Source of the DNA: Symploca sp. SIO1C2
Lineage (GTDB): Bacteria; Cyanobacteriota; Cyanobacteriia; Cyanobacteriales; Coleofasciculaceae
Length of the DNA stretch: 64,000 bases
Assembly (NCBI GenBank): GCA_010672925.1
Contig: JAAHFP010000001.1
Location: 381,037-445,036 of the forward strand
Reading direction: 5' to 3'
The first letter of the stretch is position 1. Every line of letters begins with the position of its first letter. Below are positions 57,990 through 64,000 of the stretch, one piece after another. A program made the translations under genes and the position numbers. A model generated the notes under the pieces. It searched no databases. It had not been told where the DNA came from and worked only from the letters and a program-made list of their open reading frames with translations.

Positions 57990-60479
57990 TCATGCATAAA
58001 TGCACAAAGTTAAGCGTACCGTACTAGACACAGATTGAGGAACCCGCCAACTAGAGAGCGATCGCTTAATCAAGTCAATCACTACTGTTTCCTCTAAAGT
58101 TGAAGCCTGGTCATCTAGTACAATTCTTCCTACACGACCCTTACGTACTAGAAACTCGAAGACAATTTCGCCACTGGACTTAGGTGATAAACTCAGCTGT
58201 AGCTTTTGCAGATGTTGTTTAAGGGCAGTGATAGCTGTTTCATTCAAGCCGATGGCACTAATAACTTGTACCCTGCGATGACTGGCTTTGATTCGAGACT
58301 TAATCTGAGGTTTTGCCTTGCTACCAAAGAAAGGGCTCAATAATTCACAAGTACCAGTACTAGGTATGGCTAAAGTTTCCCCTCCCACTACCATTGAAGT
58401 CAAGCTAGAACAATTTGCTAATCGTTTCCTGGATGAAGTTTTTGGCGTATGGTTAGTACTACTGCGCAACTTAGAACGGATGGAGGGAAAGGGAGTGGCA
58501 TAAGCAGCTGAACCAAAAATGCCTTGACGACTGACACCCTCCGGCATCTCCACCGGTACTTGCATAGAGATGTAGCTGATATTAGCAAGGATTGGCAAGT
58601 TATCTTCCCCCTGCACTGTCTCACTACTAGGCTTAGGGCTAACCTTAACTTGATTACCGACAGCAACAAAAGCAGTATAAGGAGACAAAAGCTGATAGTC
58701 CAAAGCTGTTTGTGTAACTGTATCCACCCCTGACTTAGTTTCAACGCCGAACATTCCCTGCATCAAGTCTTTAATCCTAGCCCGACCCCAGAGTTGGGCA
58801 ATAGCCGGATTGCCTTCTTCATCAAATTTTAGGTTAAATCTTTGCTCATAAAGGTTGCCACCTGCCACCGTACCGGTAAGACGCAAAGAATAATTGGGGT
58901 ACTTTTCTGTTTCTGGGGGAAGAGATAAGGGGGAAATTCGTCCTAACAATACTAATGGTTGCTGGGCAAATAAGTCAGGGGGAGCTGAGGGATAAATCAC
59001 TAATTCTGGATTTCTTCCCACTGTCTTCATTTCTGTGCCTTCTTCTAAAGACGCAGTTGATACCTCTACTTGGATATTCGTCAATACAGGGTTATTGATT
59101 TGGCGAAAAAACTTTTCTGCTACCTCCCCAGTAGGCTCATCCTGACGCACAATTTGAGCTGTCCCTCGTCCAATCTCAGCTAAACGATTGAGTAAAAAAT
59201 GGTTGGGGGAACTACCAATACCAAAGCTGTAGAGGCGATTTCCTGGCTTGAGTTGTTGTTGTACTTGAACTAATACTTCATGTTCATTGCCAATGTAACC
59301 ATCTGTCAGCAGCACGATGCTCCGTAACCTTCCCTCTTCCGCCGCTGGAAAATTCAGCACGGCTTGAATACCCCGACGTAAATAGGTACAACCATTGGCT
59401 TGCAACTTATTGATATAGTTAATCGCCTCGGTGCAGTTTTTCTGCGTATTCTGGAGAGGTTTGGTAGATAGCTGGCTGGTAGTATCGGCAAAGTCAATAA
59501 TGGTGAATGTGTCGTTAGGATTTAAGCCTTTGATAAACCGCCGCATTAATTCCTGGGATTTTCGCAAAGGGTCACCTTGTTGGGAACCAGAAGTATCGAC
59601 AAGAAAAACCACATCTTTGGGTACAATGGCCGCAGGGGAATATTCTAAGGCGGGAATCAAATAAATAGCAAAGTGACCACCTCTTTGATCTACCTGGCTT
59701 AAGATAGTTGCCTGAGTCTGTTCCCTCCCTACTCGATAGCGCAAAATCAAGTCTTTATTGGGAATAGTGTCTTTACCAATCAGTTCCACCCGTACAATTT
59801 GCTGGTCATGTTCTACTCTAAACTGGTGAGAAGGAGAACACACATCAGAAACTGGTAAACCTGCCTCAATCTCAACTGTTATCCCAATATCGTGTCCTGA
59901 ACGAGTTTCAGGGGGAATGATTGGGGGCATAATTCGGGAAGCATCGGGAACTCTGTCTGTATCAGCAGTTTCATCAATTGGTGTACCGGGAATGAAACGA
60001 GGGCCGACCACCATTGGGAAGATAAATTCGTAGTCCCCACCTTCAAATTTAAGGCTATTTGTGTAGCGAAGGGAAACCTCTATTGTCTCTCCTGGTTGAA
60101 TATTAGCTAGGGACTGGGTAAAAATATTGTCTCTTTCTTGCTCTAATAATCCTGCGACTTGCCCTTTCTGTCGAGCTTGCTCGTAAATTTTTTGGGCTTC
60201 TTCTCGTTTTTTGATATTACCCTTAATTAAGCGATCGCCTAATCTAATTTCCATCTCATCCACCGCTGCTTCATCCGGCAGAGGGAAGACATAGATTGCT
60301 TCTAATGGCTGAGAGAAGGGATTGTCAAAAGTCTGCCTTACCTCTACTCGCGACAGATTGCCAGCAATTTTTGCCTCAACTTCTGTATGTTTGAGAGGGA
60401 AAACTAGCCGTTGCTCATCAGTTTGGACATACAAGCCTCCTAGCTTTCGCTGGGAGAGATTACTTGTAGTTGTCGTCAT
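57990..60479 (-). CDS. VIT/vWA domain protein with TonB-like C-terminus
   Basis: 829 residues from ATG 60479, which has GAGGGA upstream; the frame is open 15 codons further. VIT domain (about 10-140, VEVRQTFDNPFSQPLEAIYVFPLPDEAAV), vWA domain (about 290-470) with MIDAS DTSGS and TDGYIG, a beta-rich region, a Ser-rich linker, and a C-terminal TonB/AgmX-like module (GEIVFEFLVRKGRVGRIVL ... SLSSWRVP). No signal peptide was seen, yet VIT-vWA-TonB proteins elsewhere are cell-surface or envelope adhesion/motility factors. The function here is inferred only. Confidence 0.9.
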   Translation of the reverse strand: MTTTTSNLSQRKLGGLYVQTDEQRLVFPLKHTEVEAKIAGNLSRVEVRQTFDNPFSQPLEAIYVFPLPDEAAVDEMEIRLGDRLIKGNIKKREEAQKIYEQARQKGQVAGLLEQERDNIFTQSLANIQPGETIEVSLRYTNSLKFEGGDYEFIFPMVVGPRFIPGTPIDETADTDRVPDASRIMPPIIPPETRSGHDIGITVEIEAGLPVSDVCSPSHQFRVEHDQQIVRVELIGKDTIPNKDLILRYRVGREQTQATILSQVDQRGGHFAIYLIPALEYSPAAIVPKDVVFLVDTSGSQQGDPLRKSQELMRRFIKGLNPNDTFTIIDFADTTSQLSTKPLQNTQKNCTEAINYINKLQANGCTYLRRGIQAVLNFPAAEEGRLRSIVLLTDGYIGNEHEVLVQVQQQLKPGNRLYSFGIGSSPNHFLLNRLAEIGRGTAQIVRQDEPTGEVAEKFFRQINNPVLTNIQVEVSTASLEEGTEMKTVGRNPELVIYPSAPPDLFAQQPLVLLGRISPLSLPPETEKYPNYSLRLTGTVAGGNLYEQRFNLKFDEEGNPAIAQLWGRARIKDLMQGMFGVETKSGVDTVTQTALDYQLLSPYTAFVAVGNQVKVSPKPSSETVQGEDNLPILANISYISMQVPVEMPEGVSRQGIFGSAAYATPFPSIRSKLRSSTNHTPKTSSRKRLANCSSLTSMVVGGETLAIPSTGTCELLSPFFGSKAKPQIKSRIKASHRRVQVISAIGLNETAITALKQHLQKLQLSLSPKSSGEIVFEFLVRKGRVGRIVLDDQASTLEETVVIDLIKRSLSSWRVPQSVSSTVRLTLCIYA

Positions 60480-60571
60480 GGTTGTTTCCCTCAAAAACCT
60501 GGGTAAATGGATTAACTTCACCACGGTCGTGAAGTGCAGTACATCAGCAATAACCCACTAGTTAAAAAGGT

Positions 60572-60732: not shown

Positions 60733-61728
60733 CTAAACAGCACCACTCTCTTTATTGAAAACTACCCAAATGGTTTTGAAGATGAGCTTTATGTCATAGA
60801 GCAAACTCCAGTTTTTCTGGTAGCGCAAATCTAATTCAATGATGTCTTCAAATTGACGGATAGTTGATCGTCCATTCACCTGCCATTCACCTGTCATCCC
60901 TGGCTTGACATCTAAACGCTGCCACTCTGGTACTTCATAAATGTCCACTTCATTAGGAGTAGGGGGTCTGGTGCCCACCAAACTCATCTCCCCTTTGAGA
61001 ACATTCCAAAACTGGGGCAACTCGTCTAGACTAGTTTTGCGCAAGAAGCGACCTACTTTGGTAATTCTGGGGTCGTTTTCGTTCTTGAAGACCTTACCAT
61101 CTGCCTGATTTTTGATGGTCTTTTTGAGGGCTTCCGCATCAACACACATCGAGCGGAATTTCCAAATCTTAAAGGGTTTACCCATCCAACCTAGGCGGGT
61201 TTGACTAAAGAAAATTGGACCTGGACTGTTAAGTTTGATGGCAAGGGCAATAGGCACAAAAACCAGACTAGTAAGCACCAAACCAACTATGGCTCCTAGA
61301 ATGTCAAGTGAGCGCTTGATCTGTGATCGCACTGAAGGGTGAGTTGTTGGTAAAAGGGTCTCTGAGACCTTAGCAGTAGTGCTAGTACTATCTTTAGCGG
61401 CTTCAAAGGTCAAAACCTGGTCGAGTCCCGTCAAAGACAACACCGCCTTCACTGGGGGAGTCACTCCCCTAAGTAACAGGGGAATATCTTTTTGGCGGGC
61501 GTGTTTAAGATTGCTTACTAGGGCACCTACACCACTGCTATCGATAAAAGTGGTTTTGCTGAAATCGAAAATAATTTTTTCCGGAAGGCTAGTATCTTGC
61601 AGAAGCTGCTGAAAAGTTTGTTTAAACGCTACAGCTTCCAGGACAATGAGGCGAGCTGGTAGCTGCACAACCGCAGTACCTTTTGCTTGTATAATCGGAA
61701 ATTCGGTTTCTGGAGTGGGCTGAGTCAT
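60733..61728 (-). CDS. STAS domain fused to bacterial sugar transferase
   Basis: 331 residues. Residues about 10-110 are a STAS domain with the conserved [19 protein letters not shown] strand-turn; Ser64 is in the place of the phosphorylated Ser of SpoIIAA. A membrane helix (about 140-165) leads to the sugar-transferase domain: [55 protein letters not shown]. Such transferases move a sugar-1-phosphate to undecaprenyl phosphate to start exopolysaccharide. It is about 555 bp from, and divergent to, a gene with the same STAS-transferase half. Confidence 0.92.
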
Positions 61729-62334
61729 AAAAACCTGGGAGTCTAAAGTAAAGCTCAGTATTCAAGATGCAAGAATAGGCTAATATAATAATTTTGGCAC
61801 GTTACTCTTTTACATGTCATTGACTTGACCAAATTTTTATAAAAGCATCCGACAGGCAACAGGCTACCCTCAGTGAAGGGAAAAACAAGGTCTAATCCGA
61901 AAATAGACACGGGGACGCGGGGACGCGGGGACGCGGAGACAGGGATTTTCATGCACGGTGGTGAAAATTTTTTTCATCGAGACTGCCTCGGAGCCTCCTG
62001 CCTTGTTTCTTGAAAGCTTGCCATGAAATCTATGATCCGGAACTAGCCAAGATTCATTGTAAAAAGTATTACTAATTGTTTACTTTCACTAAAAAAAAAG
62101 TCAACATCTCCCCTAGGACGGTAACAAATGTGTCACCCCTTGCAATTTCGGAAATAATTAGGTTATTCTCAATAATAACCTAGGTTAACATAAGTTAACT
62201 GAAGTACAACAGGGAGCATCACTAGTAGTTTATTTAAATTATTATCTTAACCTACTCTATCAGAAGCTCCAGAGTTCAGTACTATGTTGTTAGACCAAAA
62301 AATATTCTCTCTCGAGGAAAAAGGGAAGAATTAT
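61729..62334. promoter_or_regulatory. Divergent promoter region of the two STAS-transferase genes
   Basis: GGGGACGCGGGGACGCGG repeats (61912-61940), an inverted copy of the GCACGGTGGTGAAAA dispersed repeat (61948-61990), a TAGGTTATT...AATAACCTA inverted repeat (62159-62182) and GTTAACATAAGTTAAC (62183-62199). The last two, within 150 bp of the forward gene, are candidate operators. No promoter was assigned with certainty. Confidence 0.5.
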
Positions 62335-64000
62335 ATGGACACAGTCAGGATTCTTAACTTAGATATCGATAATTTTTTTCAAGGTGAATTACTTGAAAAA
62401 TTAGATCAAGGTATTGTATTTACTCCCAATGTAGATCATTTGATAAATTTACAAATAGATGAAGATTTTCGCAAAATTTATGACCAGGCTGACTATAAGG
62501 TCTGTGATAGCCAAATTATTTTCTACATTGCCAAGTATTTATTGAAAACACCAATTAAGCAAAGAATTGCAGGTTCTGATTTTTTTCCTGCTTTTTATGA
62601 GCATCACAAGAACAATGAAAATATTAAAATTTTTCTTTTAGGTGCTGCTGAAGGCGTAGCAGATAAAGCAAAAGAAAATATTAATGCAAAATTGGATAGA
62701 GAAATTGTAACTGATACCTACTCTCCAATTTTTGGATTTGAAAAAAGCGAAGAAGAATGCGCCAAAATAATTGATATAGTAAATAATTCAGAAGCCACAG
62801 TATTGGCAGTAGGACTTGGAGCGCCCAAGCAAGAAAAATTTATATGTAAATACAAAGATAAGTTTACAAAGATTAAAGTCTTCTTGGCAATAGGTGCAAC
62901 TATCGATTTTGAAGCGAACCAAGTGTCTCGTTGCCCAGAATGGTTAAGTAAGCTAGGATTTGAATGGCTTTACCGATTAGCCTGTGACCCTCGCCGTTTA
63001 TGGAAAAGATATTTTAAGGACTTAGCTTTTTTTGGTCTAGTTCTTAAACAAAAGTACAACCTTTATATAGAACCATTTAGTGATTTATACCGCTATATCA
63101 TCAAACGTTCTGAAGGTCCTCAGATCATTCCTCAAGGAAAAACTGCTGTAATTCAGATGCCTGAGCGCCTGACTGTTATCGAAGCTGTAGCTTTTAAGGA
63201 AGACTGTCAGGCACTTTTGCAAGAAACTAGCACACTTGAAAAAATTGTTTGCGATTTCAGTCAGACTAATTTTATAGACAGCAGTGGTGTTGGTGCGCTA
63301 GTGAGTAATCTCAAACAGGCTCGGGCAAAAGAGGTTGAGCTGTCTCTTAATGGCGTTACTCCTCCAGTAATGGCAGTTTTGGAACTGACTGGACTAGACA
63401 AAGTTTTGGCGATTGATTCATCTCTCCAATTTACAAAATCTGATTTAGAAGAACAGTTACCAACGACTCACCCTTCTGTACGGTCTTGGGTGAAGCGATG
63501 GATAGATATCCTGGGAGCTATTGTGGGTTTGCTCATTACTGCCATTTTGTATCTTCCTATTGCTATTGCAATTAAACTTAATGACAATGGTCCAATTTTC
63601 TATCCCTCAATCCGTTGTGGTTGGTTAGGACGAGAGTTTAAGACGTGGAAATTCCGCACAATGGTTGTCAATGCCCAAGAACTAGAAGGCCCCAACAAAG
63701 ATCTAGGCAAAGGGGTATTTACTCATCCAGACGACCCCAAAATTACACAAGTGGGTCGTTTCTTAAGGAAAACTGGTTTGGATGAATTGCCTCAATTCTG
63801 GAATGTACTCAAAGGAGAAATGAGCCTGGTGGGTACTAGACCACCGACACCATATGAGATTGCCAACTATGAAGTATCGGAATGGCGACGTTTAAATGTC
63901 AAACCAGGGATTACTGGTGAGTGGAAGATTGTTGACGACCGCTCGCAAATTAAAGATTTTGAAAACATCGTCAAGCTAGATTTAGACTACCAAAAAGACT
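62335..64000 (+). CDS. GT26 (WecG/TagA)-STAS-sugar transferase fusion, 3' end outside window
   Basis: The frame is open to the right edge (555 codons seen). Residues about 1-240 are a GT26 glycosyltransferase: VFTPNVDHL, VCDSQIIFYIAK, RIAGSDFFPAFYE, IFLLGAAEGVADKA, VGLGAPKQEKFI, WLYRLACDPRRLWKRYF. Residues about 262-360 are a STAS domain with [11 protein letters not shown] (Ser316 at the SpoIIAA site). A membrane helix near 388-413 leads to a sugar-transferase domain ([44 protein letters not shown]). One protein thus joins two steps of lipid-linked glycan assembly to a regulatory module. ATG 62335 has GAGGAAAAAGGGAAG upstream; ATG 62284 adds 17 residues. Confidence 0.92.
   Translation, partial: MDTVRILNLDIDNFFQGELLEKLDQGIVFTPNVDHLINLQIDEDFRKIYDQADYKVCDSQIIFYIAKYLLKTPIKQRIAGSDFFPAFYEHHKNNENIKIFLLGAAEGVADKAKENINAKLDREIVTDTYSPIFGFEKSEEECAKIIDIVNNSEATVLAVGLGAPKQEKFICKYKDKFTKIKVFLAIGATIDFEANQVSRCPEWLSKLGFEWLYRLACDPRRLWKRYFKDLAFFGLVLKQKYNLYIEPFSDLYRYIIKRSEGPQIIPQGKTAVIQMPERLTVIEAVAFKEDCQALLQETSTLEKIVCDFSQTNFIDSSGVGALVSNLKQARAKEVELSLNGVTPPVMAVLELTGLDKVLAIDSSLQFTKSDLEEQLPTTHPSVRSWVKRWIDILGAIVGLLITAILYLPIAIAIKLNDNGPIFYPSIRCGWLGREFKTWKFRTMVVNAQELEGPNKDLGKGVFTHPDDPKITQVGRFLRKTGLDELPQFWNVLKGEMSLVGTRPPTPYEIANYEVSEWRRLNVKPGITGEWKIVDDRSQIKDFENIVKLDLDYQKD

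Follow-up and report, generated by a model that had tools for sequence, protein, structure and literature searches.

A GT26-STAS-PGT fusion in Symploca and RsbW-like kinase genes in tandem with its two-part relatives: possible partner-switch control of a polysaccharide starter enzyme

Locus and domain layout

The window, i.e. the whole stretch of 64,000 nucleotides from Symploca sp. SIO1C2 analysed here, ends within a gene which encodes a GT26 (WecG/TagA) domain, a STAS domain and a monotopic PGT (bacterial sugar transferase) domain in one frame (Table 1). In the host contig, the frame continues for 107 bases beyond the window edge to a stop at L004:9143; the completed gene has no internal stop and retains all three domains. 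Each of them scores above its curated Pfam cut-off, namely Glyco_tran_WecG at aa 69-243 (PF03808, E 7.6e-53, 179.2 bits, cut-off 27.4), STAS (PF01740, E 2e-14, 53.7 bits, cut-off 22.6) and Bac_transf (PF02397, E 3.5e-60, 203 bits, cut-off 27), which confirms the three-part layout proposed in the first-pass annotation.

The STAS segment is also matched by TIGR00377 (53.8 bits, cut-off 53.45). When compared by sequence to solved structures, the fusion matches TagA, WbaP, PglC and the STAS protein TM1442 (E 1.4e-8 for TM1442). An AlphaFold2 model was computed from an alignment of 101 sequences (pLDDT 87.3, pTM 0.70) and is usable for the domain folds; its domain packing is unreliable. A Foldseek search of this model against the PDB returned TagA, WbaP/PglC and TM1442/SpoIIAA/RsbV, and STAS domains of SLC26 transporters match too. 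Profile, sequence and fold together rule out that the middle segment is not STAS.

The same stop-free three-domain frame was found in five assemblies, three of the window's genus (G000, G001 and G002) and two of the same family (G013 and G017), the relatives being 60-80% identical to the window's protein. A stop or frameshift between the domains, named in the annotation as grounds for rejecting its reading, is absent in the host contig and in all five assemblies. Since these share the frame, neither a chimeric contig nor an overlooked stop is a likely cause, and an assembly artefact was ruled out.

Table 1. Features of the fusion gene and its divergent neighbour (window coordinates)
Feature	Position	Strand	Size or residues	Basis or remark
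GT26-STAS-PGT gene	62284..64000 (end equivalent to 64107)	+	607 aa	open frame and host contig
GT26 (WecG/TagA) domain with C-terminal appendage	62335..63054	+	aa 18-257	Pfam; alignment to TagA 7mpk
STAS domain	63139..63429	+	aa 286-382	profile, sequence, fold
Ser333 codon	63280..63282	+	first Ser of FIDSSGVG	candidate phosphoserine
Monotopic PGT (bacterial sugar transferase) domain	63493..64000	+	aa 404-590	last codons past window edge
Asp500-Glu501, catalytic dyad of monotopic PGTs	63781..63786	+	LDELPQ at 499	invariant in 5 fusions
KIVDDR replacing usual PGT QVNGR	63925..63942	+		genus-specific change
Two-part STAS-PGT paralogue, divergent neighbour	60733..61728	-	331 aa	63% identical to matching fusion part; QVNGR intact

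Beside the paralogue, a VIT/VWA-domain protein is encoded at 57990-60524; G001 and G002 also have a similar gene next to their paralogue. Downstream of the fusion follow genes for two NTP transferases, an FAD oxidoreductase, an RmlC-like epimerase, a DRL-type oxidoreductase, an NAD epimerase and a UDP-glucose dehydrogenase. This nucleotide-sugar run (L004:9564-17266, i.e. window position 64528 onward, past the edge) has the same gene order in G001, and its product may be an unusual sugar. The fusions of G013 and G017 are embedded in a polysaccharide cluster that also encodes a GT2, a GT4 and a chain-length-type ATPase scoring above cut-off for CbiA and below it for Wzz. The suggestion that the protein serves a gliding-associated polysaccharide is not supported: the tested neighbours are nucleotide-sugar genes and the VIT/VWA protein, with no motility genes, and no link to gliding or hormogonia was found near the fusion gene among the proteins tested.

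Occurrence and origin of the three-part layout

The survey of the three-domain order proposed in the annotation was run on 388 genomes of the order; among the matches listed, five genomes carry the three-part frame, all of one family, of which 20 genomes were included. Besides the window's genome, the carriers are Symploca sp. SIO2E6, Symploca sp. SIO2C1, Coleofasciculus sp. LEGE 07092 and Limnofasciculus baicalensis. In a phylum sample of 386 genomes, into which these four had not been drawn, the frame appeared among the matches listed in the window's own genome only. Both searches scored three candidates per genome and listed them best first. A scan of contigs by GT26 patterns gave 58 loci with titles that are cyanobacterial as far as checked. 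The two-part STAS-PGT is common, accounting for most of the order's listed matches and extending beyond the order to several further families of its class. One match in G407, which seemed to run GT26 into STAS, turned out to be a plain GT26 of 257 aa.

The genomes G012 and G017 belong to one genus and share the locus, including the flanking genes. Of the two, only G017 has GT26 there, and DNA similarity between them sets in again at fusion codon 245; GT26 was thus gained or lost cleanly at a domain boundary. This offers a natural experiment on the joining of the first two steps within one genus. In the trees, the fused GT26 halves fall together with unfused GT26 from G003 and G014 (support 86/88, not strong), and the STAS-PGT halves of G013 and G017 group with the unfused STAS-PGT of G012 (support 93/87, not strong). 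Both trees require two label changes, and the starred branches force one only. Separate neighbouring genes for GT26 and STAS-PGT, as a pre-fusion state, were not found among the loci examined. The same polysaccharide cluster of G012 contains a second, very divergent STAS-PGT of 320 aa (L077:7504-8463).

Residues and constraint in the two enzyme halves

In the GT26 half, the equivalents of the TagA active site (T47, N49, D75, R94, Q183, E184, R231, R238 and R242; alignment to TagA 7mpk, residue roles from PMC6493773) are invariant across the five fusions, including the arginines of the appendage. The fusion does not have the N-terminal four-helix membrane bundle plus accessory domain of the large, WbaP-type PGTs; its N-terminal part consists of GT26 and STAS. 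The Asp-Glu dyad named for monotopic PGTs in PMC10942596 and many other PGT positions are intact. The motif QVxGR, present in WbaP and in most STAS-PGTs, reads K[IV]V[DE][DE]R in three of the five fusions, i.e. in all members of the window's genus, and QVNGR is kept in G013 and G017. The G002 fusion additionally has GTKPP for GTRPP.

Within the window's genus, dN/dS is 0.10-0.14 for the GT26 part, 0.28-0.32 for the STAS part and 0.21-0.22 for the PGT part, the latter being about 2.4 to 3.5 times the value of the neighbour paralogue (0.06-0.09). Between G013 and G017, the PGT part gives 0.07, with synonymous sites near saturation. The stem of the fusion branch has a length of 0.68 versus 0.26 for the neighbour paralogue. 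Hence all parts of the fusion are constrained, but STAS and PGT of the window's protein have either shifted in role or weakened. Because QVNGR is lost and dN/dS is raised in the window's genus, priming activity of the fused PGT half is uncertain there. Of the original claim that priming and addition of the second sugar are joined in this protein, the three domains and the intact GT26 residues stand; with the altered motif and the weaker constraint on the PGT half, the joining of both activities is not secure.

A possible reading of these changes, which we hold at clearly less than even confidence, is that the window's genus uses its fused PGT half as membrane anchor and switch platform for GT26 and no longer for priming, which would be done by the neighbouring STAS-PGT or another copy. 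The replaced motifs of the three genus members, the higher dN/dS of the PGT and STAS parts compared to GT26 and the paralogue, and the long stem would fit. However, the dyad and many further PGT positions are intact, a dN/dS near 0.2 still means purifying selection, and the explanation is inapplicable to G013 and G017, where the motif is retained.

Flanking sequence of at least 2.5 kb on each side was available for 51 distinct GT26 genes. Four of these adjoin a PGT gene, three of them on the same strand; therefore adjacency alone is no proof of coupling. At L100:9893-11568, L109:9893-11567 and L078:9283-10732, the gene directly after GT26 encodes a PGT without STAS; here each step has its own gene, and the two genes are neighbours.

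Close relatives of the GT26 half carry further domains. An N-terminal EAL domain is fused to GT26 at L133:7953-9464, L137:9254-10723 and L261:3900-5354 (Pfam; Acaryochloris relatives), and four more such fusions (L132, L136, L142 and L143) were assigned by length and sequence. EVLLR is retained in these EAL parts. Where DDFG would be expected, six of the seven have DN[FY] and one has DDFA; because of this degeneracy, the EAL parts look like receptors instead of enzymes, and EAL-GT26 is a possible candidate for a c-di-GMP receptor on the second-step enzyme. Other GT26 proteins have a C-terminal extension of 150-250 aa with a DUF4388 match below cut-off (L106:9998-11482, L264:4942-6171, L259:3718-4929 and L134:7005-8216). 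The GT26 subfamily of the fusion seems prone to acquiring regulatory domains, which would suit a gate-keeping enzyme.

Conserved serine, tandem kinase genes and a proposed switch

Asp-Ser occurs at the STAS site in every one of the 100 sequences compared, 95 two-part and five three-part proteins. The first serine of DS[ST]G, the residue phosphorylated in SpoIIAA and RsbV, corresponds to residue 333 of the fusion, which is therefore the candidate phosphoserine; the phosphosite had initially been placed at Ser316, which must be corrected. In SypA, the phosphoserine is Ser56 (PMC4517449).

A comparison of neighbours at 21 loci revealed a gene for a small protein directly after many two-part STAS-PGT genes. 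This protein was HATPase_c_2 in four of four cases tested (Pfam), and one matches the serine kinase RsbW (PDB 6m36, E 2.3e-6). Of 95 distinct two-part genes, 48 are directly followed on their own strand by the RsbW-like kinase gene, with gaps of -61 to +486 bp. The 95 genes represent the top of the similarity lists plus 40 hand-picked lower rows and are not a random draw; they were obtained from 99 STAS-PGT rows after removal of four truncated repeats (L002, L006, L007 and L146), and for L197 only 631 bp downstream are available. Outside the order, five of seven loci have the kinase beside the STAS-PGT (L249, L250, L251, L254 and L255, not L252 and L253); L256, from inside the order, has a STAS-PGT without neighbour kinase. 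Wherever a kinase frame occurs in a STAS-PGT locus (64 frames, counting repeats), it adjoins the STAS-PGT. The control set of 96 loci lacking STAS-PGT, which partly overlap and total 1.14 Mb, contained no member of this kinase family. The ATP-site motifs E..TN, D.G and GRGL are kept at ≥95% in 55 distinct kinases. In four loci, a SpoIIE/PP2C-type phosphatase gene is third, after the kinase (many loci extend about 1.5 kb downstream only), and in two of two tested, GAF and PAS domains precede the SpoIIE phosphatase (Pfam).

The other 47 of the 95 genes lack a neighbour kinase; among them are all 19 members of family f33 placed in the tree, and in one genome of this family, G053, the best kinase match is distant (E 1.1e-23). 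In G026 and G054, divergent STAS-PGTs are present and neither genome has a match to the RsbW-like kinase. The Asp-Ser site is retained even where the neighbour-type kinase is missing; it is therefore either served by a different kinase or used for something else. No kinase gene adjoins any of the five fusions, and neither HATPase_c_2 nor SpoIIE was matched on the window's contig at E up to 0.001. Eight SpoIIE matches occur elsewhere in the window's own genome, and all five fusion genomes encode a STAS-PGT with adjacent kinase at another place (from matching coordinates; for G000 and G017 also by reading of the locus).

Tandem kinases, control loci and the invariant Asp-Ser support partner-switch control on the priming enzyme itself. 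Direct control of the enzyme by a kinase/phosphatase switch had been proposed in the first-pass annotation, and the evidence is now stronger because the kinase and SpoIIE tandems exist in its unfused relatives; for the fusions, the missing adjacent kinase speaks against it. Altogether, the interpretation is strengthened for the two-part family and weakened for the PGT half of the window's protein.

In our assessment, the chances are even that the fusion is a bifunctional PGT of polysaccharide synthesis, in which a PGT unit bears a partner-switch receiver and GT26 is joined in front. In a two-part STAS-PGT, the RsbW-like kinase, often from the next gene, would bind the STAS domain and phosphorylate the conserved serine, and the SpoIIE/PP2C phosphatase would reverse this. 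Loading of the lipid carrier with sugar phosphate by the membrane enzyme would be permitted or not according to the state of the STAS domain. In the three-part form, a GT26 of the kind extending the lipid-PP-sugar made by the PGT would have been joined ahead at the clean domain boundary, and the committing second step would thereby be held at the membrane beside the same switch. TagA was reported to be active once its C-terminal appendage contacts the membrane (PMC6493773); fusion to a monotopic membrane enzyme would keep GT26 at the membrane and the switch next to the TagA-like appendage. The PGT would have come under direct partner-switch control via its own antagonist domain, with the next enzyme joined in one family. 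The phosphorylation is inferred, and so are its direction and effect, the choice of sugars and, for the fusion, the action in trans of a kinase encoded elsewhere. The 47 two-part genes without neighbour kinase, the five fusions without adjacent kinase, the few GT26-PGT pairs and the altered PGT half are the points against this reading.

The tandem genes would also fit a reverse flow of information, in which the STAS domain of the enzyme is an anti-sigma antagonist which binds the RsbW-like kinase, frees a sigma factor or regulator and so reports synthesis capacity to transcription. Classically, STAS/RsbW pairs work in this way (PMC8256260), but here the antagonist is part of a membrane enzyme and no sigma gene was noticed in the tandem; we consider this explanation unlikely. 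Similarly improbable, in our view, is a STAS domain that serves in structure or ligand binding, for dimerisation or to sense nucleotides or lipids, with phosphorylation not being its main role. It would be comparable to the accessory domain of WbaP, which binds uridine nucleotides and was proposed to be regulatory (PMC10942596); the two-part genes without neighbour kinase, the two genomes without the kinase family and the matches of SLC26 transporter STAS domains to the fusion model agree with it. Against such a module speak the invariant Asp-Ser and the tight linkage with a kinase of intact motifs.

Among known systems, EpsZ (NF041877) and EpsA (NF041872) are similar to the PGT and GT26 halves of the fusion, both far below the NCBIfam cut-offs. 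They presumably serve one Myxococcus pathway. In the Caulobacter holdfast, a PGT, HfsE, is likewise followed by a WecG/TagA-family enzyme, HfsJ, the two acting in sequence (PMC6372794). They differ from the fusion in being separate proteins without STAS, regulated by a small inhibitor and c-di-GMP. HfsJ is inhibited by HfiA through its C-terminus (PMC3900383) and therefore gives a precedent for control at that point of GT26. The Bi-PGT class (O'Toole 2021) resembles the fusion in having functional domains fused to the PGT core, according to PMC10942596; the word STAS is absent from the account given there, and the class is likened to the fusion by definition only.

For Anabaena sp. PCC 7120, All4160 is described as a glycosyltransferase with N-terminal STAS (PMC8256260), and all4160 is needed for the heterocyst envelope polysaccharide (PMC4390870). 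With STAS ahead of a glycosyltransferase it is like the STAS-PGTs, a likeness drawn from the description, which in the excerpts covered mentions neither a GT26 part nor a kinase partner. The statement that no named system has this layout therefore holds for the three-part order in the open-licence literature searched, as excerpted, where no report of a STAS-PGT-kinase operon or of the three-part layout was found, and not for a STAS-glycosyltransferase as such, which is already in print with all4160.

In SypA/SypE of Vibrio fischeri and HmpU/V/W of Nostoc punctiforme, a STAS protein is likewise under a serine kinase and phosphatase and controls polysaccharide or hormogonia (PMC10120452, PMC4517449, PMC8256260). 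The STAS proteins SypA and HmpV are free small proteins with targets stated there as unknown, in contrast to the fusion, where STAS is a covalent part of the enzyme; SypA acts below transcription (PMC10120452). It is plausible, if slightly short of an even chance, that across cyanobacteria the partner switch acts directly on the starter enzyme of surface polysaccharide, and not on a sigma factor, with the antagonist domain built covalently into the target. By analogy, the targets of SypA and HmpV might be priming or GT26 enzymes, and the three-part fusion would extend the switch to the second step.

Priming of lipid-linked glycans commits limited carrier lipid, and overuse of UndP is discussed in PMC10942596. 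Cells may control the production of their sugar coat directly at the starter enzyme, and the operon of kinase and STAS-PGT represents a directly testable post-translational switch at the priming step. The covalent STAS-PGT also proposes a class of targets for free STAS regulators such as SypA. Directly upstream of one STAS-PGT gene, a frame of 115 aa matches STAS (G004:C622:3188-3487) and could encode a free STAS competitor.
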